Shown here: positions 4,423-26,496 of the stretch, in pieces | How the letters are laid out: each line of letters starts with the position of its first letter | Position numbering within the stretch: the stretch's first letter is position 1 | From: Kaistia algarum | GTDB lineage: Bacteria; Pseudomonadota; Alphaproteobacteria; Rhizobiales; Kaistiaceae | NCBI RefSeq assembly: GCF_026343945.1 | Contig: NZ_JAPKNJ010000001.1 | Coordinates: 372,001-436,000, forward strand | Direction of reading: 5' to 3' | Length of the DNA stretch: 64,000 bases | The notes under the pieces: generated by a model | The model's input: only the letters and a program-made list of their open reading frames with translations | What the model was told of the DNA's origin: nothing | Database searches by the model: none | Program-made: the position numbers and the translations under genes

Positions 4423-4475
4423 GGGGGGGGGAATTACTTCCCGGCCATTTTCCCACCCTCGTTCGACCAGTCTGG
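4423..4475 (+). promoter_or_regulatory. late-promoter element, copy 1 (upstream of lysis genes)
   Basis: A G-run leads into the dyad GGGAATTACTTCCC (4429-4442), then CGGCCATT, 17 bases, and CCAGTCTGG (4467-4475). The same layout recurs at 12305 and 26447. This copy has nine Gs where the others have six. The endolysin ATG follows 28 bases downstream with its own GGAG site. Inferred to be the binding site for the Mor/C-like activator. Confidence 0.65.
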
Positions 4476-4503
4476 ACGGCACCGAAGCGCTCGGAGCCCG
4501 TCC

Positions 4504-5289
4504 ATGCCGACCCCCAAATTCGCCGCCTGCCTCGCGGTCACCCTCGCTTATGAGGGCGGCTATTCGACCGTCCGCGCCGATCCGGGCAATTGGACCGGCG
4601 GGAAGGTCGGAAAGGGGACGCTCAAGGGCACCATGAAGGGGATCGCCGCTTCGGCCTATCCCGACCTCGACATTGCCCGCCTCACCGATGACGAGATCGC
4701 CGCGATCTACGAGCGCGACTATTGGCGGCCGATCCGGGGCGACAGTCTCGCCGCCGGCCCTGATCTCGCGACGTTCGATTATGGCGTGAACTCCGGCGTG
4801 TCGCGCGCGGCGAAGGCGCTGCAGAAGGCGGTCGGCGCGAAGGTCGACGGCAAGATCGGTGCCGCCACGATCTATGCGGCGTCGGCTTCCGAGCCGAAGG
4901 CGGTCGTGAATGCGATCTGCGGCGCGCGTCTGTCGTTCCTGCGTAGCCTCACCAGCTGGAAGACATTCGGCAAGGGCTGGGGCCGGCGCGTCGGCGAGGT
5001 CAAGGCGCGGGCGCTGCTGATGGCCGGCGCGACCGCCGAGGCCGTGCTCACCAGCGCCGCGGACGAGACCCGCAAGGCCGCGAACGACAACAAGGCGTCG
5101 AATGCCTCGGTCGCGGGCGGCGCGGTCACGGGCGGCACCGCCACGGTCCAGGCCGGCGGCCTCGACTGGCTGGCGCTCGGCGCCCTGGCCGTCGCGGCCG
5201 TCGTGCTGATCGGCTGCGGCATCATCCTTTATCGCCGGGCGAACGCCCGCCGCGAAATGGCGGCGGCGATGGTCGCCGTCGCGAAGTAG
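4504..5289 (+). CDS. endolysin, glycoside hydrolase 108 family, with C-terminal membrane anchor
   Basis: A 261-residue lytic enzyme. Residues 1-90 form a GH108 muramidase-like domain with the EGGY motif, where Glu17 is the presumed catalytic residue. Residues 90-165 match the associated peptidoglycan-binding domain (FDYGVNSGVSRAAKALQKAVG, VDGKIGAAT). A linker rich in Ala/Gly/Thr leads to a membrane segment near residue 225 (LALGALAVAAVVLIGCGIIL) and a basic tail. Gram-negative GH108 endolysins often carry such anchors. The gene opens the lysis module, directly behind late element 1, with GGAG at 4493. Confidence 0.85.
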   Translation: MPTPKFAACLAVTLAYEGGYSTVRADPGNWTGGKVGKGTLKGTMKGIAASAYPDLDIARLTDDEIAAIYERDYWRPIRGDSLAAGPDLATFDYGVNSGVSRAAKALQKAVGAKVDGKIGAATIYAASASEPKAVVNAICGARLSFLRSLTSWKTFGKGWGRRVGEVKARALLMAGATAEAVLTSAADETRKAANDNKASNASVAGGAVTGGTATVQAGGLDWLALGALAVAAVVLIGCGIILYRRANARREMAAAMVAVAK

Positions 5290-5299
5290 GGGCAGGACC

Positions 5300-5815
5300 A
5301 TGGATCTCGACTGGAAGCAGATCGCAGGCCCGCTGGCGCAGATCGGCGCCAAGACGCTCGGTGGGATCATCGGCGGGCCGCTCGGCGCCGCTGTCGGCGG
5401 CGTCGTCGGCGAGACCATCGCCCAGACGCTCGGCGTCGAGCCGACGCCGGCGGCCGTCGCCCGCCAGATCGAGAAAGACCCGGACGAAGCAACGATTCGG
5501 CTGAACGACCTGGAGGCCGAGCGGGCGCCGGAATGGGCGGCGCTGGAGCAGGCGGGGCTCCAGCTCATGGGCCAGCTCGCGGCGAAGGAATCGTCCGAGG
5601 GCTGGATCTCGTGGGGCTGGCGCCCGGCGCTGTCGTGGCTGATCGCGGCGATCATCCTGCAGAGCTTCATCGTCGGGCCGTGGATGCAGGCGCTGTTCGG
5701 CCTCTCGGTCGCGGTCCCCTATGACAACGTCATCGGAATTTCGGCGATCTGGCTCACGATCTATGGCGGCGGCCATACGGCCAAGGCCATCTTCGGCCGA
5801 CGTCTGGAGGCGTGA
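5300..5815 (+). CDS. holin-like protein (3TM, GTA-release type)
   Basis: A 171-residue protein. Its N-terminus is glycine-rich (LGGIIGGPLGAAVGGVVGETIA), the middle is charged, and two hydrophobic segments lie in the C-terminal half (ALSWLIAAIILQSFIVGPW and VIGISAIWLTIYGGGHTAKAIF). The W-x-SWGWRP motif before the first membrane helix is typical of the three-transmembrane holin family known from gene transfer agents. It follows the endolysin by 10 bases and would form the membrane lesion for lysis. Confidence 0.75.
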   Translation: MDLDWKQIAGPLAQIGAKTLGGIIGGPLGAAVGGVVGETIAQTLGVEPTPAAVARQIEKDPDEATIRLNDLEAERAPEWAALEQAGLQLMGQLAAKESSEGWISWGWRPALSWLIAAIILQSFIVGPWMQALFGLSVAVPYDNVIGISAIWLTIYGGGHTAKAIFGRRLEA

Positions 5816-6189
5816 TGCCGGAATGGCTGAGGGATTGGTGGCCGCTGATCGCGCTCGCCTACACGACGGTTCTCATGCCAGCCGCTGGCTGGATCATCCG
5901 GACCGGTCTCGTGCCGCGCGCCGAGTTTGAGCAGGCCAAGGCGACGGAGGCGTCCTCGCGGGCCGCCGCGGACCAGCAACTTGCCGACCGCATCGCCGAC
6001 GGCGCGCGTCGTCTCGACCGGGTTGAGACGGACATGCGTCACTTGCCCGACAAGGAGGTGACGCACCGGATGGAGCTGACTCTGGCTGCCCTCAAGATGG
6101 AAATCTCGGTTCTGTCGGAGCGACTGCACCCGGTCGCGGCGATCTCGGATCGCCTGCAGGAATTCATGTTGGAGAAGGGGGCGCGGTGA
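5815..6189 (+). CDS. DUF2730-like phage membrane protein
   Basis: A 124-residue protein starting at ATG in the TGATG junction with the holin gene; the GTG three bases earlier is possible. One membrane helix (WPLIALAYTTVLMPAAGWII) is followed by an amphipathic coiled-coil-like region to the end. Mu-like phages carry a DUF2730 protein at this point between lysis and terminase genes. It may be an accessory lysis component. The function is not established. Confidence 0.65.
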   Translation: MPEWLRDWWPLIALAYTTVLMPAAGWIIRTGLVPRAEFEQAKATEASSRAAADQQLADRIADGARRLDRVETDMRHLPDKEVTHRMELTLAALKMEISVLSERLHPVAAISDRLQEFMLEKGAR

Positions 6190-6515
6190 TGTCGGACATT
6201 GAGCAGCAGCGCGCTGATACGCTGCGCCGGAAGATGCGGGAGGAGGCCCGGCTGATCATGCTGCGGGCGCTCGCCGACGAGATCAACGAGACGCTGACCT
6301 CGTCGCGGCTGGTCGATGTCCTCGACATGTTCGGGATCTACAAGGAACGCTCCTGGGTACATGACGAGCTGGCATGGATGGCTGAGGCCGGCGCGGTCAC
6401 GCTCACCGATGCCGGCACCGTCAAGATCGCGCGACTGACGGAGAAAGGTAGCCGTCACCTCGATCGGCGCATTGCGATCGAGGGCATCCGGCGGCCGTCG
6501 CGGCCGGAGGTGTGA
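6189..6515 (+). CDS. winged-helix-like phage protein (Mu gp26-region homologue)
   Basis: A 108-residue protein starting at ATG in a TGATG junction. The arrangement of helices ending in a turn (TLTSSRLVDVLDMFGIYKERSWVHDELAWMAEAGAVTL) followed by two short strands (GTVKIARLTEKG) resembles a winged helix, as in the VpaChn25-type phage family found before the small terminase in Mu-like phages. Exact role unknown; a terminase accessory or regulator is plausible. Confidence 0.65.
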   Translation: MSDIEQQRADTLRRKMREEARLIMLRALADEINETLTSSRLVDVLDMFGIYKERSWVHDELAWMAEAGAVTLTDAGTVKIARLTEKGSRHLDRRIAIEGIRRPSRPEV

Positions 6516-6516
6516 C

Positions 6517-7101
6517 ATGGCCGATCGGCCGGAGCGCGAGGGCCGCGGACGTCTATCGTCGATCGAGCAGTTGCCGGAGGAAGCCGCCGACGACGTGATC
6601 TGGGCGATGCAGGAGCTGGCCGCTCGAAAGCGGACACAGACGGATATCCTGTTCGAATTCAACGATAGGCTCGAAGCCAAAGGGCTCGATCCGATCTCGC
6701 GCTCGGCCTTCAACCGGCGTTCCATGCGCATGGCCAGCAGCCAGCGTCGCCAGAGCGAGCGCGACGCCGTTTTGCAGGCGATCGGCGCGAAGCTGTCGCC
6801 GAAGGACATCAACGAGAGCACCCTGATCCTCGGCGAGATGCTGAAAACGCTGATCTTCGAACTGGCAGAGGAGCAGCCGGAAAACCGGACGACGAAGGAA
6901 TCCATGGAGCTGTCGCGGGCTTACCTGGCCACCGTCTCAGGTCAAAAGATTTCGGCCGATCGCCTCAAGCTCATGGATGAGTACGAAAAGAAGACGGCTG
7001 CGGTCATCGACAAGATTGCCGAGGAGAAAGGCCTCTCGGAAGAGGCCGTGGCGCAGCTGCGCCGCGACTTCCTGGGCGTGCGGCCGAAGGAGGCAGCATG
7101 A
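6517..7101 (+). CDS. small terminase subunit, DUF3486 (Mu gp27-like)
   Basis: A 194-residue protein. The start is the ATG two bases after the previous stop. The opening SSIEQLPEEAADDVIWAMQEL and the later S-x-SAFNRR segment are the DUF3486 pattern of Mu gp27, proposed to be the DNA-recognition subunit of the packaging motor. It overlaps the large terminase gene by 4 bases, as expected. The second half is long charged helix, suitable for oligomerisation. Confidence 0.8.
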   Translation: MADRPEREGRGRLSSIEQLPEEAADDVIWAMQELAARKRTQTDILFEFNDRLEAKGLDPISRSAFNRRSMRMASSQRRQSERDAVLQAIGAKLSPKDINESTLILGEMLKTLIFELAEEQPENRTTKESMELSRAYLATVSGQKISADRLKLMDEYEKKTAAVIDKIAEEKGLSEEAVAQLRRDFLGVRPKEAA

Positions 7102-8708
7102 CCGATCCGGTTCTCGGCCGCTCTCCGGACGCGCTCCTCGAGGAGCTGCCGCGCGGTGCCGACATCCCCGAGAACCTCGACCCGCTGGCGGATGGCGTGC
7201 TCATGCGCCACCAGGCCGAGTGGATCGAGGACGACTCGGATCTGAAGCTCGGTGAGAAGGGGCGTCGTACCGGCATCACCTTTGCCGAGGCGCTGGACGC
7301 GACGCTGATCTCCGCCGCGAAGCGCTCGGCCGGCGGGCAGAACTATTTCTACATCGGCGATACGAAGGACAAGGGCCGCGAGTTCATCGGCTATGTCGCG
7401 CATTTTGCCAAGGTGGTGGTGAAGCAGCTCGCGCAGGTCGAGGAGTTCCTGTTCGAAGATCAGCAGGCCGACGGCAGCACGAAGCTGATCGCTGCCTTCC
7501 GCGTTCGCTTCGGCTCCGGCTTCCGCGTCGAGGCGCTGTCGTCACGGCCAGAGAACATCCGCGGCCTGCAGGGTACGGTCTGCATTGACGAGGCGGCGTT
7601 CCATCGCGATGTCCGCGAGGTGCTGGACGCCGTGAACGCTCTCCTGATTTGGGGAGGCCGCATCCGCGTCATCTCCACCCATAACGGCGTGCTCAACCCA
7701 TTCAACGAACTGATCCGCGAGGCGAAGGCCGGGAAGGTTCCCTTCAGCCTCCACTTCATTCCCTTCTCGAAGGCCGTTCAAAACGGGCTTTTCCGACGCG
7801 TCTGCCTGATGAAGGGCGTCCCTTGGACGGCCCAGGGCGAGGCGGAATGGGAAGCGAAGATCCGCGGGGCATACGGCCCGCGCACGGCGGCAATGCAGCA
7901 GGAACTCGACTGTGTTCCGGCCGAGGCAGAGGGATCGGCGCTGACGCGCATCCAGATCGAGGCTTGCATGATCGAGGCGCCGATCGTGCGTTGGGCGCGG
8001 GACGACGCCTTCAAAAACGCTCCCGAACATATCCGGAAGGCCGAGGCGCGGGACTTCTGCGAGCGCGAGTTGGCCCCCGTGCTGGCGAGCCTCGATCCGC
8101 ACCTCCAGCATGTCTTCGGCGAGGATTTTGCGCGGTCCGGCGATGTCACCGACATCAAGGTCTTCGCGATCGAGCCGTCGCTGGTTCGTCGATGCGCTCT
8201 CCTGGTCGAACTTCGCAACGTCCCCTTCGACCAGCAGCGCGAGATCTTCTTCTATGTCGTCGATCGCCTACCGCGAATGGCTGGCGGCATGATGGATGCC
8301 ACTGGCAACGGCGCGTATCTCGCGGAAGTGGCGGCCCAACGCTACGGCTCGCTTGTCGTCGAGGTGAAGCTCTCGGTGGAATGGTACCGGCTGAACGCTC
8401 CGCCCTATGTCGAGGCGTTCGTCGACCGAACGGTCCTGATCCCGCGCCATGAGGACGTGCTTCGCGACCACCAGGCGCTCTCCTATGTCGGCGGCGTGAT
8501 CAAGGTTCCCGACGACATGCGCTTCAAGGGCTCGGACGGCTTCGACCGTCACGGCGATTCCTCGATCGCCGGCATGCTCGGCTATGCCGCCTCGCGCGCC
8601 AATCTGCCGACCTACGGCTACGAGCCGATCTCCGACCTTATCCAGGAAGACTGGCTCGAACAGGTCGTGCCCGAGAACCGTTCGACCGGGAGGCGCGCGC
8701 TATGGTGA
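7098..8708 (+). CDS. large terminase subunit (Mu gp28-like)
   Basis: A 536-residue packaging motor. The ATPase half has a modified Walker A at residues 53-61 (EKGRRTGIT) and a Walker B at 161-168 (VCIDEAAF, with Asp164 and Glu165). ISTHNG near residue 195 is the coupling motif. The nuclease half contains GEDFARSGDVTD, MMDATGNG and RHGDS, the acidic metal-binding positions of the RNase H-like fold. The length matches Mu gp28. It cuts host-flanked phage DNA during headful packaging in this phage class. Confidence 0.92.
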   Translation: MTDPVLGRSPDALLEELPRGADIPENLDPLADGVLMRHQAEWIEDDSDLKLGEKGRRTGITFAEALDATLISAAKRSAGGQNYFYIGDTKDKGREFIGYVAHFAKVVVKQLAQVEEFLFEDQQADGSTKLIAAFRVRFGSGFRVEALSSRPENIRGLQGTVCIDEAAFHRDVREVLDAVNALLIWGGRIRVISTHNGVLNPFNELIREAKAGKVPFSLHFIPFSKAVQNGLFRRVCLMKGVPWTAQGEAEWEAKIRGAYGPRTAAMQQELDCVPAEAEGSALTRIQIEACMIEAPIVRWARDDAFKNAPEHIRKAEARDFCERELAPVLASLDPHLQHVFGEDFARSGDVTDIKVFAIEPSLVRRCALLVELRNVPFDQQREIFFYVVDRLPRMAGGMMDATGNGAYLAEVAAQRYGSLVVEVKLSVEWYRLNAPPYVEAFVDRTVLIPRHEDVLRDHQALSYVGGVIKVPDDMRFKGSDGFDRHGDSSIAGMLGYAASRANLPTYGYEPISDLIQEDWLEQVVPENRSTGRRALW

Positions 8709-10360
8709 GTTCCATCCTCGGGCCGGATGGCCGCCCGATCGAGCGCGCTACGCTCGGCCAGGAGATCGCGACGCCGACGGTGATGGGCGTGCGACACACG
8801 CTGTCCGACGGTGTCGCCTCCGGCCTGACGCCGGAGCGGCTGGCGGCGATCCTGAAAAGCGCCAGCATGGGCAACATGCGCGACTATCTCACCCTCGCGG
8901 AGGAGATGGAGGAGCGCTACCTGCACTATGCCAGCCAGGTGCAGACCCGGCGCCTCGCCATTGAGGGCGTCGAGATCTCCGTCGACGCCCTGCCAAGCGT
9001 CGCACCGAAGATCACGGATGCGGTGCGCGCCCTGGTCGAGAAGCCCGGCCTGCTCGATGCGGTCGGCGCGATGACGGATGGCATCGCCAAGGGCCTCTCC
9101 GTCGTCGAGCTGATATGGGAGTACCAGGACGGCCTGCTGCAGCCGGTCGAATATAAATGGCGCGATCCACGCTATTTCCAGTTCGACCGCGCCTCCATGA
9201 CCGAATTGCGCCTCGCCGTCGACGGGCAGTTCGACGGCGTGCCGCTGCCGGTGGGCAAGTTCCTGCGGCATCTGCCGCGCACCAAGATGGGCATCCCGAT
9301 TCGCCGCGGCTTCGCGCGCGCCGCCGCATGGGGGTTCCTGATCCAGTCGTTGGGCCTGAAGGACTGGGCGGCCTTTGCCGAGGTTTACGGCATGCCGTTC
9401 CGGATCGGCAAATATCATCCGAGCGCTTCGGAGAAGGACAAGCGGACGCTTCTACGGGCCGTCGCCTCGATCGCCAATGACGCGGCCGCCATCATTCCGG
9501 CCGGCATGGAGATCGTGTTCCAGGAGGTGAAGGGCAGCCAGGGGGAGGCTGTGTTCGGCGGGCTCACCGGCTATATCGACAAGTCGATTTCCAAGCTCGT
9601 CGTCGGCCAGACCATGACCTCGGACGACGGCGCCTCCCTCGGGCAGGCAAAAATCCACAACGAGGTGCGCCTCGACATCCAGCGCGCCGATTGCCGCCAG
9701 ATCTGCAACACGCTCAATCGCGACCTGATCCCATTCTTCGTCGCGCTGAATTTCGGGCCGCAGGCCAATTATCCCAATGTCGACATGCCGGTTGCCGAGC
9801 CGGAGGATGTTGTGGCGCTAACGACGGCGGTGAAGAGCCTCGTGCCGCTCGGCCTCAAGGTGTCGCAGCGGGAAATGCGCGAGCGCATCGGCCTCTCGGA
9901 GCCCGGAACCGATGACGAACTTCTGGCGCCGCCCAGCTCCGTCGTACCGCTGCCCGATGACATCACCGATGACGGCGAGCCCGATCCGGCCGCAGCCAAG
10001 AGGGGCACGGTCAAGAACGGCAAAGGCAAGGGCGGCGGCAAGGCCGATCCGACGGCCGAACTCGCCGGCCATGTCGGCGGCTGCCGCTGCGGATCGTGCC
10101 TGCGCACAGCGCGTCTGGCCGCCGATCGGCCAACCGAGGCGGTGGACGATGTCCAGGACTATCTCGACGAAGTCATGGAAGGGTGGCAGCCGCTGCTCGC
10201 ACCGATGATCGAGAAGCTGTTGGCAACGGCCGATAGTGCCGCGTCGTTCGACGATCTGCTCGATACGCTCCACGGGCTCGAGCTGGACGGCCGGCCGCTT
10301 GCCGAGAAGCTCGCCATCGCGACCTCGATCGCGCGCGGGCTCGGCGACATCAAGGATTGA
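8702..10360 (+). CDS. portal protein, DUF935 (Mu gp29-like)
   Basis: A 552-residue portal that overlaps the terminase gene by 7 bases. Typical DUF935 features are the N-terminal LTPERLAAILKSASMGNMRDY, the SQVQTRRLAI segment, and FAEVYGMPFRIGKY near residue 230. The C-terminus has a lysine/glycine linker followed by a GGCRCGSC cluster that could hold a metal ion, then a helical domain. The portal forms the dodecameric DNA channel at the head vertex. Confidence 0.92.
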   Translation: MVSSILGPDGRPIERATLGQEIATPTVMGVRHTLSDGVASGLTPERLAAILKSASMGNMRDYLTLAEEMEERYLHYASQVQTRRLAIEGVEISVDALPSVAPKITDAVRALVEKPGLLDAVGAMTDGIAKGLSVVELIWEYQDGLLQPVEYKWRDPRYFQFDRASMTELRLAVDGQFDGVPLPVGKFLRHLPRTKMGIPIRRGFARAAAWGFLIQSLGLKDWAAFAEVYGMPFRIGKYHPSASEKDKRTLLRAVASIANDAAAIIPAGMEIVFQEVKGSQGEAVFGGLTGYIDKSISKLVVGQTMTSDDGASLGQAKIHNEVRLDIQRADCRQICNTLNRDLIPFFVALNFGPQANYPNVDMPVAEPEDVVALTTAVKSLVPLGLKVSQREMRERIGLSEPGTDDELLAPPSSVVPLPDDITDDGEPDPAAAKRGTVKNGKGKGGGKADPTAELAGHVGGCRCGSCLRTARLAADRPTEAVDDVQDYLDEVMEGWQPLLAPMIEKLLATADSAASFDDLLDTLHGLELDGRPLAEKLAIATSIARGLGDIKD

Positions 10361-10363
10361 GCC

Positions 10364-11728
10364 ATGGCCGGGCTTGAGGAGGCCCAGCCGAAGCGAGGTT
10401 TCGGGCCGGCGCCGGAGGTGCTTTCCTATTTCGAGGGGAAGCAGCTCGCGCCGCGCTTCTCCTGGCTGGACGTCTGGGGCGAGGAACACGCTTCGGCCTT
10501 CACCGTGGCGAAGGCGACCGAACTTGAACTGCTGACCGCCTTCCGCGATTCGATCCGCGCCGCGCTCGAAAAGGGCCAGGGCCTGGAGACCTGGAAGGCC
10601 GGCATCGAGCCCGAGCTGCGGCGTCTCGGCTGGTGGGGCAGGCGCCCGGTCATCGATCCCACCGGGCAGGACAAGCCGCGGATGGTCGACTTCTCGTCGC
10701 CGCGCCGGCTCAAGAACCTGTTCTGGTCGAACATGAATTCCGCGCGCGCAGCCGGGCAGTGGGACCGCATCCAGCGGACCAAGCGGGCGCTGCCCTATCT
10801 CCTCTATGTCCGCACCACGGCAGCGGAGCCCCGGCAGGAGCACCTGACATGGGTCGGCGTCATCCTCCCGGCGGATGACCCGTTCTGGCGGACGCATTTT
10901 CCGCCCAACGGCTGGGGCTGCAAATGCACCGTGCGTCAGATCACGCGCCGCGAGCGGGAACGGCTGCTCTCCTCTGCGAGCGAGGCGAAATTCTATTCGC
11001 CCGATCGGCCGGTGATCGAAATGAAGCCGTTTGTCAATCGGCGGACCGGCGAGGTGACTTACGTCCCGGAGGGCATCGATCCGGGTTGGCATACCAACCC
11101 CGGCATGCCGGCCCGCCGCCGCCTCTTGGACGAGACGCTTGCCGGCCGGGTGGAAACGACGGCCGCCGATCCGACCCTGCACAATTCCGCGCGAAAGGCA
11201 GTCGCCGAGATCGTCGAGGGCGCCGCATTCGTGGATCACCGCGACGGGGCTATCGCGCTCGATGCCCGCCGGAAGGCCGTCCAGGCCGATGCTCTGGCGC
11301 GAGGACAGAGCGAGGCCGAGGCCAAACGCCTGGTCGAGACAGAGGCGCCATGGAGCCATGCACCCCTGCCGATCGCCGTTCTGCCGCCGCGCGTTTCCGA
11401 TCGACTTGGCCCCGCACCGCTCGTTGTCACGGTCACCGACAACGCGATTGCGCACTCTGTGGCCGCGCACCCGATCGAGATCGCCGCGTGGCGGCGCGTT
11501 CAGGATGTGCTCGACAGGGGCGAAGTCCATCTCGACGATACGGGGGAAAAGCTGTGGGCCTTCCTGCGGGAGGAGGCGGTCGACTGGATGCTTGTGCTCG
11601 TCAACAAGGCTGGCGGCTGGCGGCTCCTGACATACTACAAGCCATCGAGCGCGTCCTATCGAGACAGGCAACGGCAACGTCCGGGGCGCCAGGTCATCTT
11701 GAATGAAAACGCGGGTGGAGGGCCGTAA
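10364..11728 (+). CDS. head morphogenesis protein (Mu F-like) with C-terminal PBECR-type nuclease-like domain
   Basis: A 454-residue protein. Residues 80-200 are the Mu F / SPP1 gp7 domain: FWSNMNSARAAGQW, the conserved R-x-E-H block, and HFPPNGWGCKCTV with its Cys pair. Residues 330-430 (DNAIAHSVAAHPIEIAAWRRVQ, then DWMLVLVNKAGGWRLLTYY) match the PBECR group, a family related to barnase, EndoU, colicin E5/D and RelE that is often fused to phage head proteins. Such a domain could be injected with the DNA and cut RNA, which is inference. Confidence 0.85.
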   Translation: MAGLEEAQPKRGFGPAPEVLSYFEGKQLAPRFSWLDVWGEEHASAFTVAKATELELLTAFRDSIRAALEKGQGLETWKAGIEPELRRLGWWGRRPVIDPTGQDKPRMVDFSSPRRLKNLFWSNMNSARAAGQWDRIQRTKRALPYLLYVRTTAAEPRQEHLTWVGVILPADDPFWRTHFPPNGWGCKCTVRQITRRERERLLSSASEAKFYSPDRPVIEMKPFVNRRTGEVTYVPEGIDPGWHTNPGMPARRRLLDETLAGRVETTAADPTLHNSARKAVAEIVEGAAFVDHRDGAIALDARRKAVQADALARGQSEAEAKRLVETEAPWSHAPLPIAVLPPRVSDRLGPAPLVVTVTDNAIAHSVAAHPIEIAAWRRVQDVLDRGEVHLDDTGEKLWAFLREEAVDWMLVLVNKAGGWRLLTYYKPSSASYRDRQRQRPGRQVILNENAGGGP

Positions 11729-11881
11729 CCTCCTCGCGGCGCCCGAAGGCGACGGCGAACGAAATGTCTCACCCGCATAGCCAACATAGGATCAATCCCC
11801 CGGCCTCGCAATCCCGTCGCTTTCCTTCGCGCCCGTCCCGCGCTAGCTCCTCCTCGATGAGCAAAACGAGGATCCGGCGCG

Positions 11882-12121
11882 ATGACGGCTCTTACGACGG
11901 TCGGGGGGTTCCTGCAGAGTCGATACGAGATCCATGCGCATTGCCTGGCCTGCGGCCATCATGCCGTTCTCGACCTCGAGACGATTGCCGCCACGCATGG
12001 CCGCGATCTCGGTGTCATCGGCGAGCACAGCCCGCTCCGGCGCATGCTTCGATGTCGCTGCGGCACCCGAAATGCCACCATCCGGATCCACCCGCCCACG
12101 AATTCACGACGATCCGCTTAG
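11882..12121 (+). CDS. small zinc-ribbon phage protein
   Basis: A 79-residue protein. The pattern HCLACGHHA near residue 20 and RCRCGTRNA near residue 57 gives a C-x2-C...C-x-C zinc site, followed by a strand (TIRIHPP). It lies alone between the head protein and protease genes. Overlapping frames in this stretch are shadows of it. Zinc ribbons of this form are common small phage proteins; function unknown. Confidence 0.6.
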   Translation: MTALTTVGGFLQSRYEIHAHCLACGHHAVLDLETIAATHGRDLGVIGEHSPLRRMLRCRCGTRNATIRIHPPTNSRRSA

Positions 12122-12182
12122 ATGTGCGGCCAGAGGCCTCGGCCGCGCCGCCGCGCCGAACCCCCGTCCGAGGCGGACAGAT

Positions 12183-12304: not shown

Positions 12305-12354
12305 GGGGGGAAATACTTCCCGGCCATTTGATCAGCGCCTACCGGCCAATCTGG
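12305..12354 (+). promoter_or_regulatory. late-promoter element, copy 2 (upstream of protease/head genes)
   Basis: G6 is followed by the dyad GGGAAATACTTCCC (12308-12321), CGGCCATT, 17 bases and CCAATCTGG (12346-12354). It is the same composite as at 4423, with one base change in the dyad centre. The protease ATG lies only 4 bases after the element, so the transcript must either start upstream of it or be nearly leaderless. It corresponds in place to PI of Mu. Confidence 0.65.
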
Positions 12355-12358
12355 CCGC

Positions 12359-13333
12359 ATGACGAACCGCGGCGCAACCCCTTCGATCGGATATTTCGCG
12401 ACCCTGTCGGCCTTGCCGGTAGTGGGCGACGTTGCTCCCGAATGGGTGCAGCTCTTCCCTGCGTCGCCGGCATTCGAGACCCGCGACGGGCGCCACTTCC
12501 GGATCGATGATCCCGCACAGCTGGCCTCTGTGTTCACGAGCGAAGCCACCGAGATTCCGGTCGACATCAATCATGCCACCGAGATCCGCGCACCGAAGGG
12601 CGAAGAGGCGGAGCCGGTCGGCTGGATCAAGGAAATCGCCATCCGGGCGGGGCTCCTGTGTGGCCGTGTCGAATGGACCGACAAGGGCAAGGCGGCCGCG
12701 AAGGCCTATCGCTACGTCTCGCCCAGCTTCAACCACGACAAGTCCGGCCTGGTGACGCGCATCCGCTCGCTTGCCCTGGTCGCCGTGCCGGCGCTCGCCG
12801 AAATGCCGGCGCTCGCCGCCGCTCACAACGCTGAACCTTCGGAGCTTCCCATGAAATCCATCGCGCTCGCGCTCGGCCTGACCGAGGCGGCGGACGAGGC
12901 AAGCTGCCTCTCCGCGCTCACGACGCTGAAGACCGCAACGGTCGCCAAGACGATCCACGACGAGACCGTCGCGACGCTTTCGGCAACGAAGACGACGCTG
13001 GAAACCCTTCAGGCGAGCGTTCGCAAGGGCAAGGTCGACGCCCTGATCGAGGGTGCCCTGAAGGCCAAGAAGATCCTTCCGGCGCAGAAGGACCATTATG
13101 TCGGGCTCTGCTCGACCGATGCCGGCCTCGCCCAGGTCGAGCAGCTGATCGCCGCCAGCCCGGCGCAGCTCGCTGCCTCAGGCCTCGACGATCGCAGCGC
13201 TGAGGATGGCGACCATTCCGATCCCGTAGCGCTCGCCGCCGCGGCGACCACCTACCAGCAGAAGCTCGCGGCCGGTGGGCGTCAGGTCTCGTATTCCGAA
13301 GCGGTCCTGGCCGTCTCCCGCGGCGCGAAATAG
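12359..13333 (+). CDS. prohead protease with scaffold region (Mu gpI-like)
   Basis: A 324-residue protein. Residues 25-160 match the Mu I-type protease: WVQLFPA, then EIPVDINHATE (probable catalytic His), GWIKEIAIR, and a YVSPSFNHD segment. The second half is a long helical Ala/Lys-rich region typical of a scaffold. No ribosome site is visible before the ATG at 12359, and there is no in-frame alternative close by. In Mu the protease matures the head and a shorter nested product is the scaffold; see 12851. Confidence 0.87.
   Translation: MTNRGATPSIGYFATLSALPVVGDVAPEWVQLFPASPAFETRDGRHFRIDDPAQLASVFTSEATEIPVDINHATEIRAPKGEEAEPVGWIKEIAIRAGLLCGRVEWTDKGKAAAKAYRYVSPSFNHDKSGLVTRIRSLALVAVPALAEMPALAAAHNAEPSELPMKSIALALGLTEAADEASCLSALTTLKTATVAKTIHDETVATLSATKTTLETLQASVRKGKVDALIEGALKAKKILPAQKDHYVGLCSTDAGLAQVEQLIAASPAQLAASGLDDRSAEDGDHSDPVALAAAATTYQQKLAAGGRQVSYSEAVLAVSRGAK
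12851..13333 (+). CDS. nested scaffold protein (Mu gpZ-like), internal in-frame start
   Basis: An in-frame ATG at 12851 is preceded by GGAG at 12841-12844 with a 6-base gap, a better ribosome site than that of the full-length gene. The product would be 160 residues, starting MKSIALALGLTEAADEA and consisting of the helical scaffold region only. Mu makes gpZ from the 3' half of gene I in just this way. The sequence supports the start; use in vivo is inferred from Mu. Confidence 0.5.
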   Translation: MKSIALALGLTEAADEASCLSALTTLKTATVAKTIHDETVATLSATKTTLETLQASVRKGKVDALIEGALKAKKILPAQKDHYVGLCSTDAGLAQVEQLIAASPAQLAASGLDDRSAEDGDHSDPVALAAAATTYQQKLAAGGRQVSYSEAVLAVSRGAK

Positions 13334-13373
13334 CCGCCCGTCCCGTCGCCCGGCCTTCCAGAGGAGCCCACCC

Positions 13374-19644: not shown

Positions 19645-20276
19645 GCGCGGCCGGCGCCATCCTCCCGACCTCGGCCGGACCGTTCGAGCGCGCTTTGGCT
19701 GACGCGATGTCGGACACGCTGCCGGTGCCGATCGCGGCGGTGTTCGACCCGGCGCAGACGCCGTCCGCCTTCATCCCCTGGCTCGCCGTTCATGACGGCG
19801 TCCGGCTGTGGTTCTCGGACTGGCCGGAGGAACTGAAGCGGCTGGTTATCGAGGACGCGCCGGTCCTCGCCGGCAAGGTCGGCCTCCGGACGGCCAGCGT
19901 GCGGATGCTGTTCTATGTCGACGGCTCGCTGCTCGATGTCGTCAGCTATCCGACGCCGTTCGTCCAGGGCCGCGCTGTCATCGGCCGGACGCCGATCGGC
20001 CATCCCGCCTTCGTCGCCCGCCATCTGGTGAAGGTCGAAACGGCTGCGCCGGCCGGCGCCTTCGTCATGGGCCGCGCCGCGATCGGCAGTGCCCGCTATC
20101 GCACGCCGAGCCGCGAGAAGATCCGCCGCGCGCTGATCGCGCTTGCCACCGCCAAGTCGCCCGAAAGCGAGTATCGCGCCGATTTCGGCCACAAGCGGCC
20201 GTTGCTGCTCGCGGACGCACCGTCGCTCGACGGCAGCCATCACCTCGGCGAATTCGTCGCCCGCAACAAGCTCTGA
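19641..20276 (+). CDS. tail protein I (baseplate)
   Basis: A 211-residue gpI homologue. ILPTSAGPFERALADAMSD at the N-terminus, PSAFIPWLAVHDGVRLWFSDWPE near residue 45, and RRLVIEDAP just after are family-specific. It completes the V-W-J-I baseplate set in canonical order. Its C-terminal 90 residues (AFVMGRAAIGSARYRTPSREK) are less conserved and may contact the fibre proteins that follow. Confidence 0.87.
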   Translation: MSAAGAILPTSAGPFERALADAMSDTLPVPIAAVFDPAQTPSAFIPWLAVHDGVRLWFSDWPEELKRLVIEDAPVLAGKVGLRTASVRMLFYVDGSLLDVVSYPTPFVQGRAVIGRTPIGHPAFVARHLVKVETAAPAGAFVMGRAAIGSARYRTPSREKIRRALIALATAKSPESEYRADFGHKRPLLLADAPSLDGSHHLGEFVARNKL

Positions 20277-20283
20277 GGCCCGC

Positions 20284-22551
20284 ATGACCAAAATTGTCCG
20301 CTTTACCGAGGCCGAGATCTCCGAGCCCGCCGATTTCGAGGCGATCGGCGAGCATGCGCGCGAGGGCGACGAATTCATCACCGGCGGCGCCGTCGACTAT
20401 CCGCACCATTGGGCCGACTTCACCATCGCGCAGACGAGCGCGATCGAGCTGACGATCTCCAAGGGTCGGCTCTTCGCGGTCGACGCGATCTTCGCGGCCG
20501 ACGCGCCGATCGAGCTCAATCTGCAGGTCCATCTTCCGCTCGTCACCGGCGACCACCGCTACATCGCGCTGCTGGTGCGCGGGGAAAGCGAGACCGTCAC
20601 CAATCTGCGCATGATCGAGACGGACGCCGAAACACACGAGACCGTGCAGCAGGCCGTGCCCAAGACCGATCGGCGCACGGTCAGCATCGTCATCCAGCAG
20701 GGGCTTTCGTCGCCGACGCCGCTGAAGCCGACCATCGCGGCCGACCAGTGCTGCCTTGCCTTCGTCGAGCTCTCGACCACCGGCATCGTCGCGGTCGAGA
20801 TGGACAATGCCTCGCGCGTCAAGTCGCTCTATGAGGTCGACGGCCGTCTCACCCAGGTCGAGGGCGACATGGCGAACACCATCCGTCGCACCACGACGAT
20901 GGAGACCGACATCGCCAATATCGCCTCGCGGCTTGGCGATATTCCGCACCCGACGATCATGCGGCAGTTGAAGCGCGATGTCGGGCTGCTGCGTCGCCAG
21001 CTCGCGCTCCCGGACGAGGCGCGCGCCTATTGGTACGATGCCGGCCTGCTTCAAGACGGGTGGGACAAGGTGCACGCGACCTGGCTTGCCCGGGTTCGCG
21101 AGGGCATCCGCTTCGCCTGGGCGCAGGAGCGCGACATGCAGCTCTCGCTGATCGACCCGTCCTCCGCGTCGATCCGGATGAGCGACACGCTGCTGCTGCC
21201 GGCCTGGACCGAGAAGACCCGCATCAGCGTCGAGCCCGATGGTGGCTCGAAGAACATTTCGCAGCTCGTCCACACCGTCACCACGGCGGTCAAGAAGTCG
21301 ATCTCCCGGCAAGTGACCGAATATGGCGAGACCGTCACGGTCTGCGAGAACCAGGCCGAATGGTCGATGCTGATGAACCAGTCGGTCGGCGAGCTGTTCA
21401 AGAGGGACGGCGAGACCTTCCAGGTGGTGGCGATCGTCGGCAACCAGGATTGGGCCGGCCACCGGATCTATGCCGTGCGCAAGGTCATCGTCCGTACCGT
21501 GACACAGGTCTATTGGGACTATGTGACCGAGACGATGGGCGTCAACGGCTCGGTCTATGGCAACACCTGGCTGTGCTCGCAGCCCATGATCCTGACCTCG
21601 ATCGACTTGAATTTCACCCGCATCGGGTCGACCGGCGACGTCCACGTCTTCGTCTGCGAATGCGACGATTCCGGCCAGCCGCAATTCGGCGCCGTCATCG
21701 TCGAGAAGACGATTTCCGCGGCGGGTCTCCATGCCGGGTGGGTCAATTTCGCGTTGCGGCCGTCGCTTTTGGAGAGCGGCAAGCGCTACGCCTGGTTCAC
21801 GGTCACCACCGGCAACCACGCGCTGGGCACCGCCTCCGGCAACAAATATGCGCAGGGGTCGCTCTTCTCCTGCTCCGACGGCGCTTGGGCGATGGGCGAT
21901 CCGCTGACCGACTTCGCCATGCGCATCAACGCGGCGAGCTTTGCGGCGACCCGCACCGTGATCGAGTTCCAGCCGCTCACCCTGACGGACGGAATGACCG
22001 AGCTGCGCCTCCTCCATGGTGGCTGGGCGCCGGGCGGCACGTCGCTGGTCTGGTATGTGCAGAACAGCGACGATCCGGACGAGGAATGGGTGCCGCTCAC
22101 GCTCGCGGCCGAGGGCTCGGACGCGCTCGCCGGCCGGCCGGCGCTGGTGCGCCTGCGTCTGGCGCTCACCGGCACCACGGATCTACAGGCGGCGATCGTG
22201 CTCGACGCCAATGCTCGCGGCATGACCTTCCGGCCGCGCGGCGACTGCCAAGCCGTCAGCAAGGAACAGGCCTTCGGGCTTTCGACCTCGACGGTGCAGC
22301 TTGAGATCGTGCTCGACGAGTTCAACCCGACCTATCACACAGTCGCGCCGAAGCTGGTCATCGGCGCCTCGATCCTGACGCCCTCGGCGACGGCCACGAC
22401 ACTCGACATGGTCAATCCGCGGAAGCGGACCTTGCTCGCCACTTTCACCCTCGGTTCGGCGACCACCTCCGCCCGCGCGCGCGTCGACATGACGACGAGC
22501 GACGTGACCGTCTGCCCCTTCATCCAGAACATCGCGATGTACGCGCTTTGA
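20284..22551 (+). CDS. large tail fibre/baseplate-attached protein
   Basis: A 755-residue protein 7 bases after gpI. Residues 1-170 form a beta-rich domain (FITGGAVDYPHHWADFTIAQT). Residues 190-280 are helical (VDGRLTQVEGDMANTIRRTT). The remainder is strands with jelly-roll character (VFVCECDDSGQPQFGAVIVEKT, WFTVTTGNHALG). It resembles the DUF4815-type tail proteins that link baseplate and receptor fibre, but I would not fix the family. It likely takes part in host attachment. Confidence 0.65.
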   Translation: MTKIVRFTEAEISEPADFEAIGEHAREGDEFITGGAVDYPHHWADFTIAQTSAIELTISKGRLFAVDAIFAADAPIELNLQVHLPLVTGDHRYIALLVRGESETVTNLRMIETDAETHETVQQAVPKTDRRTVSIVIQQGLSSPTPLKPTIAADQCCLAFVELSTTGIVAVEMDNASRVKSLYEVDGRLTQVEGDMANTIRRTTTMETDIANIASRLGDIPHPTIMRQLKRDVGLLRRQLALPDEARAYWYDAGLLQDGWDKVHATWLARVREGIRFAWAQERDMQLSLIDPSSASIRMSDTLLLPAWTEKTRISVEPDGGSKNISQLVHTVTTAVKKSISRQVTEYGETVTVCENQAEWSMLMNQSVGELFKRDGETFQVVAIVGNQDWAGHRIYAVRKVIVRTVTQVYWDYVTETMGVNGSVYGNTWLCSQPMILTSIDLNFTRIGSTGDVHVFVCECDDSGQPQFGAVIVEKTISAAGLHAGWVNFALRPSLLESGKRYAWFTVTTGNHALGTASGNKYAQGSLFSCSDGAWAMGDPLTDFAMRINAASFAATRTVIEFQPLTLTDGMTELRLLHGGWAPGGTSLVWYVQNSDDPDEEWVPLTLAAEGSDALAGRPALVRLRLALTGTTDLQAAIVLDANARGMTFRPRGDCQAVSKEQAFGLSTSTVQLEIVLDEFNPTYHTVAPKLVIGASILTPSATATTLDMVNPRKRTLLATFTLGSATTSARARVDMTTSDVTVCPFIQNIAMYAL

Positions 22552-22558
22552 GGTCCCG

Positions 22559-22738
22559 ATGAGCGAACCGATACCCCCATTTGAACCCGGCCGGACCTAT
22601 CGCGTCACCCTGATGCGTGCGGTCCGCGTCGGCGGCGTCCCGTTCCGCCCGCTCGGCGAACTCAAGATGGACGGCGCCTATCTGACGCGACTGATCGAGG
22701 AGAATGGCGCCGATGCCGTCGCTGCCGTCACCGACTGA
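22559..22738 (+). CDS. small tail-fibre-region protein
   Basis: A 59-residue protein from ATG at 22559, 7 bases after the large fibre gene. The sequence FEPGRTYRVTLMRAVRVGGVPFRPLGELKMDGAYLTRLIEENGADAV is one strand pair and a helix. Short proteins of this look sit among fibre genes in many rhizobial prophages. The function is unknown. Its end overlaps the next gene. Confidence 0.6.
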   Translation: MSEPIPPFEPGRTYRVTLMRAVRVGGVPFRPLGELKMDGAYLTRLIEENGADAVAAVTD

Positions 22739-23951
22739 CGATTACAAGGCTCCGTCCGACATGGCGCTCAGCCGGGCCGCATGGGACGCCGCCCTGGTGT
22801 CGATCGGCACGCGCCTGCGCGGCCTTGAGGCGGTGCAGGCCGATTTCGACGCACTGATCGCGCTCGGCACGAGCCAGGCGCTCGACGTCATCGCGACCAA
22901 TGTCGAGCCGCAGCTCACCGCCATGAGCGCGGCCGTCGCGGCGCTGCAGGCCGATGTCGCCGAGGCCGAGGACGTTATAACGGCGCTCATCACCGGGTCC
23001 GTTCCGGCCTCGGCCGTCGCCGAGACCGCCGATCGGATCTGGCTGACGCCGGCACTCTTCGCCGCCTGGAACGCAAAGCAGTCCGGCGATCCGACCCTGA
23101 CCGCGCTCGCCGCACTGACGGTCGCCGCCAACAAGATGATCTATGCGACCGGCGCTGACGCCTTTGCCTTGACGGACATCACGCCCTTTGCGCGCCAGTT
23201 GCTCGATGACGGGGACGCAGCGACGATGCGCGGAACGATCGGCGCGGCCGATGCGGGCCGCCAGATCGACGTAGGTGGTCTCGCGACCGGGGGAGGCGAC
23301 CTCTCGGCGAACCGCACGATCACCGTCACGAAGGCCAGCCAAGCGCAGGCCGAGGCCGGAACCGACGATGCGACGGCGATGACGCCGCTGAAGGGCGCGC
23401 AGCAGCTCGCCGTCCTTGGCCTCTTGGCGAGCAACGCCAATATCGGCCGGCGGCTCGCGACAGGAACGGTGGCGAATGCCGGATCGCTGGCCATCGTCCT
23501 GTCGAGCCATCTCGCCGCCGGCTTCAGCAAGTTTCGCCTTCACTTCCACGCCTACCGTCCAGCGACGGACGGGGCTGGGATGGTGATGAAGGTCTCCACG
23601 AACGGGGGCGTGAACTATCTCGGGACGAACGTCTATCTCTGCGCCGCGCTCACTGCCTACGGAACCACGACTGTGGCAGCAGGCGATGGAACGACGGCGC
23701 AAGCACAGATTCCCCTGCTAGGCGGACTCAGCAACGGCGGGCCGAACATCAGCTCGGCTATCCTTGAATTCGAGTGCGGGGCTGACTTCTTCGATCTGAT
23801 CTACCGGGCTTGCCCATATTTCTACAGTGGCGGGGGCGTCGGCATCTCTCACGGTTCCGCCAAGGGGCCGGCAAGCGTGAACGCGATCCGTTTCGAGACC
23901 TACAACGGCAACATCGCGGCCGCTGCGTGGTCGCTCTATGGAGCTTCGTGA
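22713..23951 (+). CDS. tail fibre protein
   Basis: A 412-residue protein. I chose ATG 22713, ten bases after GAGGAG; ATG 22704 sits too close to it. Residues 1-110 contain helical coiled-coil character (LRGLEAVQADFDALIALG, LTAMSAAVAALQADVAEAEDV). A phage fibre repeat-like region follows (GLATGGGDLSANRTITVTKASQAQAEAGTDDATAMTPLKG), which is a very common tail-fibre motif. The C-terminus is beta-rich and probably binds the receptor. Confidence 0.82.
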   Translation: MPSLPSPTDDYKAPSDMALSRAAWDAALVSIGTRLRGLEAVQADFDALIALGTSQALDVIATNVEPQLTAMSAAVAALQADVAEAEDVITALITGSVPASAVAETADRIWLTPALFAAWNAKQSGDPTLTALAALTVAANKMIYATGADAFALTDITPFARQLLDDGDAATMRGTIGAADAGRQIDVGGLATGGGDLSANRTITVTKASQAQAEAGTDDATAMTPLKGAQQLAVLGLLASNANIGRRLATGTVANAGSLAIVLSSHLAAGFSKFRLHFHAYRPATDGAGMVMKVSTNGGVNYLGTNVYLCAALTAYGTTTVAAGDGTTAQAQIPLLGGLSNGGPNISSAILEFECGADFFDLIYRACPYFYSGGGVGISHGSAKGPASVNAIRFETYNGNIAAAAWSLYGAS

Positions 23952-24421
23952 TGCCGATCATTGATGTGGTGGTCGACGCCGACGGCGTCATGCAGGAAGT
24001 TGCCCTCACCGCCGAGCAGGAAACGGCGCGCCGCGCCGAATGGGCGGTCAACGCGGCGCCCCGGCCGTCGCAGATCGACGCCGAATGTGATCGGCGCACC
24101 GTCACGGGCTTCCGATTCGGCGGCAAGGCCTACCGGCTCGACGAAAAGTCCATCGCACGGATTACGGCCATGGGCGCCGATGCCCGCTTCGCGCTGCTGG
24201 CCGGCGCCGGGATTGGTAACCTCCGTTGGGCCGATCCCGAGGCTGATTTCGGCTGGATCGCCACCGACAATACAGTCACGCCGATGGACGCGCCGACCAT
24301 GACGGCTTTCGCCGATGCCGCCAAGCTATGGGTCAGCAAAAACACTTTTGCGGCCCGGAACATCAAGAACATGAGCCCGATCCCGGCCGATTTCGCCGAC
24401 GATTCGCGCTGGCCCAGCTGA
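23951..24421 (+). CDS. DUF4376-like tail fibre assembly/structural protein
   Basis: A 156-residue protein starting at ATG in a TGATG junction. Residues 45-150 (IDAECDRRTVTGFRFGGKAYRLDEKSIARI, then WIATDNTVTPMDAPTMTAFADAA) match the DUF4376 layout found at the C-terminus of tail-fibre-associated proteins. The role is probably fibre assembly, or a fibre-attached structural part. Confidence 0.7.
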   Translation: MPIIDVVVDADGVMQEVALTAEQETARRAEWAVNAAPRPSQIDAECDRRTVTGFRFGGKAYRLDEKSIARITAMGADARFALLAGAGIGNLRWADPEADFGWIATDNTVTPMDAPTMTAFADAAKLWVSKNTFAARNIKNMSPIPADFADDSRWPS

Positions 24422-24437
24422 ACAGGAGACTTTCACC

Positions 24438-24788
24438 ATGCCCGCGAAGGATCGCATCCTTTCCATGGTCGACGCGCCGGCTGTCCCGCTCGGGCACCAG
24501 ACCGTCACCGTGACGAACGCGGCCCAAACGCTGGCCCAGCTCCTTACGGCCGCCGCCGGCGCCATCGCCGCGATCCCGGCAAACACCAAGCTCATCTATC
24601 TTCAACCTCGCGGCGACGGCATCCGCTACGCCCATGGCGCCACGACGCCGACCACCGCCGCCGACGCTACCGGCATCGGCACGGCGCTCTATGAGGGCGC
24701 TCAATATCCGCTCCGGCTCGACGACTTCGCGACGCTGAAACTCATCGCGCCGTCGAACGTCGTGCTGTCGATCGAATTCCGGGGCTGA
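24438..24788 (+). CDS. hypothetical tail-fibre-region protein
   Basis: A 116-residue protein with GGAG upstream at about 24425. The sequence is beta-strand-rich and Ala/Thr-rich (VTVTNAAQTLAQLLTAAAGAIAAIPANTKLIYLQPRG, RYAHGATTPTT), resembling small trimeric structural caps in fibre operons. No specific family recognised. Confidence 0.6.
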   Translation: MPAKDRILSMVDAPAVPLGHQTVTVTNAAQTLAQLLTAAAGAIAAIPANTKLIYLQPRGDGIRYAHGATTPTTAADATGIGTALYEGAQYPLRLDDFATLKLIAPSNVVLSIEFRG

Positions 24789-24790
24789 TC

Positions 24791-26191
24791 ATGGCAGACC
24801 CGATCATCCTGCCGCCCACGCGGCTCGCTGAAACCCTCGGCGCCAAGATGCGCCGTCTGGCGCGCGCGGCCGAAATCAGTAACCCGCTGATCCGCAATCC
24901 ATGGCTAGTTCCGCCGGCATGGGCACAGAGCACCGTTCAGCTCGTCTCCGACACGTGCGTGGCGAACGGCAACTGGTATGTCTGCGCCACGCCAGGAACC
25001 ACGGCGGCGAGCGGCACCGGCCCCAGCCACGTCAACGGGCAGGCCGTTCAAGACGGTACCGCATATTGGACCTATCTCGGCGCCGCGCCGATAACCGTAA
25101 ATGAGCCCGGTGCGCCGACGCTCACAGCCTCCACCGTGGCACCGACGTCCCCCAACAACGTTCAGATCTTCCCCGTCGGGCACGCAGCGCTGTTCCGATA
25201 CTATGGGGGACAGGGCGAGGTCGTTTCGGCCAACTATCACTACCCCTATGTGGGAGATAACAAGGCCGGAAGCCGCCAATACGGGAACAGCGTCCGCGTT
25301 GGCTTCGAGACGGACAGCCCGGTTCTAACCTTCATGGTTCCGGCAGGATCGCCAGCTCCCCGCATCCTGATCGATGGTCGCTATCTGACGATCGGCGCGC
25401 TTCGGCGCGCTTCGACGCTGACCTACTACACGCTGGCTTTTCCGGGGCTCCGCACCTGGCGATCGGTTGAGGTCGAAGGCGCGAAGGATCTGTGGGCGTG
25501 GTACGGCGTCCTCATCAGCACGTCAGCGCATATTCGCCCACCGTCGAACGAACACGACATCACGGCCTATTTCATCTGGGACAGCCTCGGCGCCGGATCC
25601 TCATATGGTCCCTGGCTCTCGGGTAACAATATCCCGCAACGCATCGGCCGGCGCCTCGGCTGGACCAACGTCTACAACATGTCGCGAGGTGGCACGGGGC
25701 CTATCAACACAGGCGGCGGCTACTACACGTTCGGCGAGCGCGTGCCTCAGCTTCTGGCCGCCAACCCTGATATCGCGTGCTTCGGCCCTCCCACGAACGA
25801 TACGGGCCAGTCGGCCGCGTCGGTGACGGCGGCGACTAAGGCCTATCTGCAGGCGGTGCGCGCCGGCTCGAAGTGCCCGATTGTTCAAATGGGTGTCTGG
25901 CCTCGCAACGATGCCAATGTCGCAACGACGGAGGCGGCTGTTCTGGCGGCGGTGCAGCAGGCGTCCGATCCGCTAGGGCTCACCTTCTTCATCCCGCTCT
26001 ACGACGCCCCGATGATGCCCATCGTGACGGGCGCCTACAACGTCGCGAAAAACCTCGTGAACGCGGCTCTCGACAACTCGTCGTACATGATCGGCGGCGA
26101 CGGTACTCACCCTGCCGAACTCGGCATCGACGGCCTTGCCACCTATACCGCCCGCGAGATCAAGCGGACGGTTCTTCCTTACATTCGATAG
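24791..26191 (+). CDS. tail-associated SGNH/GDSL hydrolase
   Basis: A 466-residue protein. Residues 1-110 look like a virion-attachment domain; 120-250 a beta domain. From about 257 an SGNH esterase follows: block I IWDSLGAG with Ser265 (Trp replaces the usual Gly), block II Gly in SRGGTG, block III PTND with Asn336, and block V DGTH with Asp437 and His440. Such tail enzymes remove acetyl groups from surface polysaccharide. That substrate here is inferred from context (between fibre genes), not shown. Confidence 0.8.
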   Translation: MADPIILPPTRLAETLGAKMRRLARAAEISNPLIRNPWLVPPAWAQSTVQLVSDTCVANGNWYVCATPGTTAASGTGPSHVNGQAVQDGTAYWTYLGAAPITVNEPGAPTLTASTVAPTSPNNVQIFPVGHAALFRYYGGQGEVVSANYHYPYVGDNKAGSRQYGNSVRVGFETDSPVLTFMVPAGSPAPRILIDGRYLTIGALRRASTLTYYTLAFPGLRTWRSVEVEGAKDLWAWYGVLISTSAHIRPPSNEHDITAYFIWDSLGAGSSYGPWLSGNNIPQRIGRRLGWTNVYNMSRGGTGPINTGGGYYTFGERVPQLLAANPDIACFGPPTNDTGQSAASVTAATKAYLQAVRAGSKCPIVQMGVWPRNDANVATTEAAVLAAVQQASDPLGLTFFIPLYDAPMMPIVTGAYNVAKNLVNAALDNSSYMIGGDGTHPAELGIDGLATYTAREIKRTVLPYIR

Positions 26192-26199
26192 GAGTTTCC

Positions 26200-26379
26200 A
26201 TGCCCGACATTGGTCTGATCAAGGCGATCCTGGCCGGCGAAGTCGCAGCCTTCAATCTCTCCTCCGCGCTCGATTTCGGGTCGATGCCGGAGGGGTGGGG
26301 CTACTGGGAGGAGCGCGCCCGGGACGGCCTTGATGCCGAGGCGCGGGCGAAGCTGGAGGCTATGCTGGCCTCCGAATAG
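26200..26379 (+). CDS. small hypothetical phage protein
   Basis: A 59-residue protein with GGAG at 26191-26194 before the ATG at 26200. IGLIKAILAGEVAAFNLSSALDF is a hydrophobic-faced helix; the rest is acidic helix. It closes the fibre operon before late element 3. No family recognised. Confidence 0.55.
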   Translation: MPDIGLIKAILAGEVAAFNLSSALDFGSMPEGWGYWEERARDGLDAEARAKLEAMLASE

Positions 26380-26446
26380 CGTTCGGACCGGCTGGACAAA
26401 CGCCGCTCGAAGCCTCCTCATAGCCGCCTGATCGGCCCGCGATGCC

Positions 26447-26496
26447 GGGGGGAATTACTTCCCGGCCATTGTCTCGGGTCCCGCCCGCCATGCTGT
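26447..26496 (+). promoter_or_regulatory. late-promoter element, copy 3 (upstream of tail sheath operon)
   Basis: G6, the dyad GGGAATTACTTCCC (26450-26463), CGGCCATT, 17 bases, then CCATGCTGT (26488-26496). The upstream half is identical to copy 1 and the second half agrees at CCA and CTG. The sheath ATG follows 32 bases later. It lies in the gap after the fibre operon, consistent with a separate late transcript. Confidence 0.65.

Follow-up and report, generated by a model that had tools for sequence, protein, structure and literature searches.

What switches on the late genes of the Mu-like prophage of Kaistia algarum that lies in contig NZ_JAPKNJ010000001.1 (positions 372,001 to 436,000, a stretch of 64,000 bases hereafter called the window)? 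An original prediction, made from the letters of the window, had singled out three copies of a composite element, in which an inverted repeat (dyad) is followed at a fixed spacing by a second conserved block, and had proposed that these mark late promoters served by an adjacent Mor/C-like regulator gene. From the analysis given here, we consider it very probable that each of the three elements is a late promoter of a Mu-like transposable prophage (for the lysis, head and sheath genes, respectively), that all are of the Mu C/Mor type, and that they are activated by the product of the gene at 3969-4364. The features on which the argument turns are as follows.

3969..4364, + strand: Mor/C-like late activator gene, 131 amino acids, GTG start (phrog_836 'late transcriptional activator', E 1.8e-18)
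4429..4442, + strand: copy 1 of the putative activator dyad, ahead of the lysis block
4442..4449, + strand: CGGCCATT of copy 1
4468..4473, + strand: candidate -10 box CAGTCT, copy 1; predicted start about 4480
4504..5289, + strand: endolysin gene, first of the lysis block (phrog_315, E 7.5e-47)
12308..12321, + strand: copy 2 of the putative activator dyad, ahead of the protease/capsid block
12321..12328, + strand: CGGCCATT of copy 2
12347..12352, + strand: candidate -10 box CAATCT, copy 2; predicted start 12359, the A of the protease ATG
12359..13333, + strand: head maturation protease gene (phrog_328, E 2.2e-63), with a predicted leaderless message and GCA as codon 6 (12374-12376)
26450..26463, + strand: copy 3 of the putative activator dyad, ahead of the sheath block
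26463..26470, + strand: CGGCCATT of copy 3
26489..26494, + strand: candidate -10 box CATGCT, copy 3; predicted start about 26501
26529..27989, + strand: tail sheath gene, which opens the third block (phrog_23, E 8.5e-54)

Composite element and its putative activator

Direct reading of the sequence bore out the letters, coordinates and spacing of the element. The dyad reads GGGAATTACTTCCC at 4429 and 26450 and GGGAAATACTTCCC at 12308, six of its seven positions pair, and in all three copies it runs into CGGCCATT, the first C of which is the last dyad base, with exactly 17 bases leading from there to CCA-N2-CTG. Identity among the copies is limited to these three parts, the 17-base spacer varying in its letters at constant length. 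The copies do precede functional blocks, as had been claimed, with the genes behind them matching endolysin, head maturation protease and tail sheath families. The regulator gene likewise adjoins the first copy, though the gap is not the 60 bases originally given, for its stop codon ends at 4364 and 64 bases separate it from the dyad.

The pattern GGGAAWTACTTCCC has three matches in the 5,259,198-base genome, all inside this prophage, with none for a reversed-pattern control, and mismatch-free GGGA-N6-TCCC occurs in the 64 kb at those three sites only; a search of the window for further copies, such as one ahead of the methyltransferase gene at 33361, gave none with intact arms. Counted from the dyad, an A at +27 and a T at +31 (A27 and T31) are present at all three copies, and the centre of the GGGA-N6-TCCC dyad lies 35 bp upstream of that of the -10 box (xAxxxT). 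Arms, A27 and T31 together occurred three times in the first 34.3 kb, as against a mean of 0.045 and a maximum of 1 in 200 dinucleotide-preserving shuffles. A promoter scan gave no sigma-70-type match at the three element sites, so these would have a -10 box without a -35 box, and if the predicted start lies 7 bases past the -10 box, the dyad is centred at -44.5.

By sequence kinship, the regulator belongs to the Mor/C activator family. While its match to Pfam Mor (PF08765; E 3.6e-5, 24.1 bits) falls just below the cut-off of 24.9, a profile comparison with Mu C and Mor gave 93% (E 3.5e-7 over 76 columns), and 20 of 27 aligned regulator relatives match Pfam Mor at E ≤ 0.01. Helix-turn-helix helices are predicted at residues 98-105 and 109-125. 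A phmmer search of the regulator against protein chains of the PDB returned 0 matches; database listings hold entries 9l0x and 9vw8 for Mu C, and 1rr7 and 9l0y for Mor. In the mechanism that we propose, the product of 3969-4364, encoded after the early genes, would bind GGGA-N6-TCCC as a dimer centred at about -44.5 and, standing in for the -35 box, would bring the RNA polymerase of the host to the -10 box (xAxxxT), whereby the lysis, head and tail blocks would be switched on.

Comparison with Mu and with phage POA1180

Mu Pm is described as having a -10 box, no -35 box and a Mor dyad centred at -43.5, much as predicted here, and the four late promoters of Mu as carrying a related dyad that is bound by C (PMC4287176); the Mor site is described as 5-bp repeats with a 6-nucleotide spacer that takes the place of the -35 box (PMC4390567). 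These late promoters are Plys, PI, PP and Pmom, one of which precedes protease gene I, as in the window (PMC4287176, PMC4461284). At Pmom itself, the 4-N6-4 dyad TTATGCCCCAATAA is followed by TAAGAT, in likeness to the window element, and the distance from dyad centre to -10 centre is 34 against 35 here, if TAAGAT is the -10 box of Pmom. Moreover, Mu C is encoded directly before the lysis gene, as is the window regulator. Because the 4-N6-4 dyad and its position are as reported for Mu Mor and seen at Pmom, the window would have a system of that same kind in which only the arms are lettered differently. Judged from sequence, we are dealing with a C-type system whose letters have changed and not with a separate one; what stands of the 'alternative late-activation system' that was originally proposed is its own arm letters, GGGA in place of the TTAT of Mu C.

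Other differences concern the third promoter, which lies before the sheath gene here and before P in Mu, and the protease message, which is predicted to be leaderless here, whereas in Mu a C site could not be made out near the start of I. Mu also has two such activators in cascade, whereas a single Mor/C-type gene was found in the host genome (E ≤ 0.001). In three other genomes (G256:C64, G302:C90 and G375:C18), we observed a pair of Mor/C-like matches separated by about 1 kb, which may represent a cascade of Mor and then C; one of the G302 pair has an internal stop.

The regulator of Ochrobactrum phage POA1180 is 29% identical to that of the window, and the dyad CTGACANTGTCAG is found behind it, before the protease gene and before the sheath gene, each time with a -10 box. 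Its arms are CTGA and TCAG, with one base fewer between them than in the window dyad. A word search of the main text of the POA1180 paper (PMC5492332) did not find 'promoter'.

The same places with other letters in relatives

A protein search with the regulator at E ≤ 0.001 found only P0001 (98% identical) and P0002 (67%), and the other aligned relatives are 25-41% identical. Differently lettered dyads (CTGA-, CCGA-) precede the lysis, protease and sheath genes in five prophages of four genomes and in POA1180. They read CTGACA-N2-TGTCAG or CCGAC-N3-TGTCGG, with variants, the same one recurring before protease and sheath. The copies are listed below in that gene order (in joined-stretch positions for the five prophages).

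G150a: 3800, 13949, 28439
G150b: 2461, 12186, 25672
G020a: 2372, 10731, 25697 (third copy by position only; tblastn with the window sheath gave no match)
G111: 2324, 10500, 25108
G165: 2473, 12683, 26341
POA1180 (annotated phage): 38972, 5410, 19464

In addition, G131 has two copies (lysis and sheath) in an examined stretch without head genes, and the short stretch of G086 has one. We compared 21 sites, three from the window and 18 from relatives, the latter chosen by a GAC...GTC motif. All 21 have the core GA-N6-TC, 19 have A at +27 and 16 have T at +31. That relatives with a homologous regulator have a dyad at the same three places, and at the same distance from a -10 box, gives good support to the claim that the copies mark late promoters under the adjacent regulator. 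The conservation expected of such prophages is found in the architecture of most, not all, relatives and not in the letters.

We also examined the geometry behind regulator genes on a broader set. After 12 weak or fragmentary genome-search loci had been dropped (L009, L013, L015-L017, L019, L020, L024, L025 and L157-L159), 127 regulators remained, and 94 once those at least 90% identical were removed. The best dyad within 150 bases behind each gene was picked blind to the -10 box, with a score of at least 6 required, and such a clean dyad was found for 65 of the 94. A27 and T31 accompany 33 of these 65 dyads but only 45 of 1,098 control dyads, which follow different reading frames at these loci and include some true second and third copies; the Fisher p of 1e-24 is too small, the rows being mutually related. 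The next best offset between 5 and 45 reaches 8/65, and the peak at a single offset is plain. In relative after relative, the first dyad copy follows the late activator gene.

Co-variation of dyad letters with the predicted recognition helix

The 65 regulator-dyad pairs (45 first and 20 held out) were compared over 114 alignment columns. For arm base 2, column 113 came out best, with an excess information of 0.72 (next 0.37), and for arm base 5 it was column 114, with 0.32 (next 0.20); both columns lie within the predicted recognition helix at 109-125. Here, glutamate 113 goes with C (10/10), tyrosine, phenylalanine, tryptophan or histidine with T (28/31), leucine with T (5/5) and arginine with G (7/11), while glutamine is split (2 A, 3 C). 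Arginine 114 goes with C in 50 of 55 pairs, and other residues with a base other than C in nine of ten. In a null simulated on the tree, the value that the first 45 pairs gave for base 2 was never reached (0/2,000 at each of eight rates).

The first 45 pairs had given, for base 2, glutamate to C (9/9), glutamine to A (2/2), tyrosine, phenylalanine, tryptophan or histidine to T (22/23) and arginine to G (6/8), and for base 5 a small margin for column 114 (0.36 against 0.32). A one-residue code for base 2 was then rejected, for it was right in 8 of 15 new pairs (5/8 and 3/7) against 7 of 15 for a constant guess of T, and all three new glutamines went with C. The base-5 rule (arginine 114 to C, other residues to A) was right in 17 of 20 new pairs, against 13 for always guessing C (Fisher p 0.007). 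In the held-out set alone, neither column 113 nor column 114 ranks first. The dyad letters co-vary with the predicted recognition helix in that residue 114 held for base 5 on new data, whereas residue 113 hardly beat a constant guess for base 2.

Of 58 new loci, 50 were used for the held-out test, leaving out seven already present and L224 (internal stop); three of the 50 (L232, L233, L252) failed a frame check, and L262 was dropped as a repeat of L261. Spurious-looking picks were kept in (L236, L254 and L275 among the held-out pairs; L008, L011 and L014 in the first set). L011, L014 and L095 were omitted from one step of the analysis, a cut that was not made for co-variation on the first 45 pairs. 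An independent-pairs test starred 7 of 42 branches, few for a decision, one of which separates the sisters L010 (arginine 114, CTGACA) and L081 (tyrosine 114, CTGAAC). The window regulator (arginine 113, methionine 114; dyad GGGAA) is consistent with the pattern, though as part of the first set it is no independent test. Mu C and Mor have a tyrosine at the aligned residue, which fits the T of TTAT, the alignment being weak there. Five regulators with leucine 113 (L212, L214, L222, L226 and L280) have GTAACA or GTGACA dyads, possibly another specificity class.

A predicted leaderless protease message

At the second copy, the start codon lies at the predicted transcription start, from which the protease mRNA is predicted to be leaderless. 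In all 20 second copies before a protease frame, the ATG comes 38-40 bases after the dyad (searched span 34-46; one of them, L091, is cut short by its contig) and 7-9 bases past the last base of the -10 position, with C as the preceding base in 20/20. Examples are the dyads at 18460 in L089, 18412 in L104 and 9060 in L108. The A/T pair of the -10 box is off its expected place in four of the 20 (G111, L091, L125, L127). At window sites 1 and 3, the ATG follows the -10 box by 31 and 35 bases, as in ordinary leaders.

Codon 6 of the protease is GCA in 16 of the 20, that is, in 16 of the 17 where it encodes alanine, although it is a rare choice there, accounting for 8.1% of the 14,700 alanine codons counted in long frames of these sequences. 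Because a GCAA box was not seen (by eye) at the matching distance at sites 1 and 3, we did not take it as part of the promoter. Among 24 further protease loci (duplicates included), seven have a dyad and a -10 box, of which one repeats L089 and two have unlikely dyads; in the remaining four, the ATG is at +38 in three and at +41 in one, with GCAA at +16 in two, as also in both loci with unlikely dyads. In POA1180 (L078, 5452-5463), the annotated TTG start of the protease at 5452 falls inside the predicted -10 region, and the in-frame ATG at 5461 seems likelier.

Weighing the explanations

Several results weigh against late promoters of this type. The 21-base element pattern was found 0 times in viral_contigs, two scans of genome_contigs gave no close regulator relatives, and among 397 genomes of the order the 16-base pattern matched exactly only in its own genome (one-mismatch matches in 38 other genomes, their surroundings unexamined, were taken for chance). 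No comparable dyad set was seen in G099, G142 and G020b, 29 of the 94 regulators are followed by no dyad that reaches a score of 6, and A27 with T31 is missing at 32 of the 65 best dyads. Moreover, 17 of the 24 further protease loci are without a dyad plus -10 box, and the three -10 boxes of the window match TATAAT only weakly.

Operators of another DNA-binding protein, such as a CI-like repressor or a host factor that silences the late blocks, would typically be dyads too, and a CI-like repressor gene does lie upstream. We nevertheless regard this as improbable, since the dyad letters co-vary with the predicted recognition helix of the late activator (the repressor gene was not compared likewise), and it is the late activator gene that the first copy follows among relatives. 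Somewhat less probable still are transcription terminators or attenuators. Although the dyads stand between gene blocks, and GGGAA-TTAC-TTCCC could fold as a short hairpin, no T-run follows them, a terminator scan found none, and the fixed distance to A27 and T31 would be left without a reason. Phage module borders often share linker sequences, and the copies could on that ground be functionless border sequence duplicated by recombination. This we find the hardest to credit, for the copies agree only in the dyad, CGGCCATT and CCA-N2-CTG, the spacer differs in letters at a fixed length, and relatives keep the places, not the letters. Late promoters of the Mu C/Mor type account for these observations best.

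Wider reading

Beyond the window, we offer tentatively, and with rather more doubt than belief, that transposable phages of this kind may have among them many mutually exclusive pairs of late activator and promoter in which the geometry is fixed and the letters are rewritten along with the recognition helix (residue 114 reading base 5 and residue 113, in context, base 2). To this would be added a head message, leaderless and made from the same promoter, in which the role of the Shine-Dalgarno sequence is taken over by the AUG together with a GCAA box fixed at +16. If true, the specificity of activator and promoter could be read from sequence, and the late genes of a resident prophage would not be fired by an incoming relative.

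A literature search of open-licence papers gave, among the matches listed, nothing that dealt with the late promoters of such phages or with late messages of Mu-like phages that lack a leader. Relative to those listings, the wider pattern of fixed layout, changing letters, helix co-variation and a leaderless protease message would be new. Mu C is known as one well-studied case. A family in which the promoter layout is fixed and the dyad specificities are many would provide natural pairs for studying how activator DNA specificity evolves and whether co-resident prophages keep their late-gene control separate. In Mu-like prophages, it would also supply a simple rule for locating late promoters and for spotting gene starts that are in doubt, and it would offer candidates for a conserved class of phage messages without leaders.

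Prophage setting and neighbouring features

Upstream of the window lie the CI-like repressor gene, a ParB-like gene, a MuA-like transposase gene (phrog_310, E 5e-152) and a MuB-like gene (phrog_296, E 2.9e-68). In the window itself come GemA, the regulator, endolysin, terminase, portal, minor head protein, protease and major head protein, followed by the neck and baseplate genes and by those for fibre, sheath, tape measure and a methyltransferase. Given the MuA/MuB-type transposition genes, GemA, and the Mu-type head and contractile tail genes, we take the prophage to be a Mu-like transposable phage. Between 15635 and 32823, the baseplate and fibre genes come ahead of sheath, tube and tape measure, which differs from the annotated Mu order, and the third predicted promoter is located at the joint between these two groups. 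Just right of the methyltransferase gene, an imperfect direct repeat (34560-34720 and 35020-35200, about 475 bases apart) lies to the left of a long minus-strand frame at 35818-37266, which may be an integrase gene.

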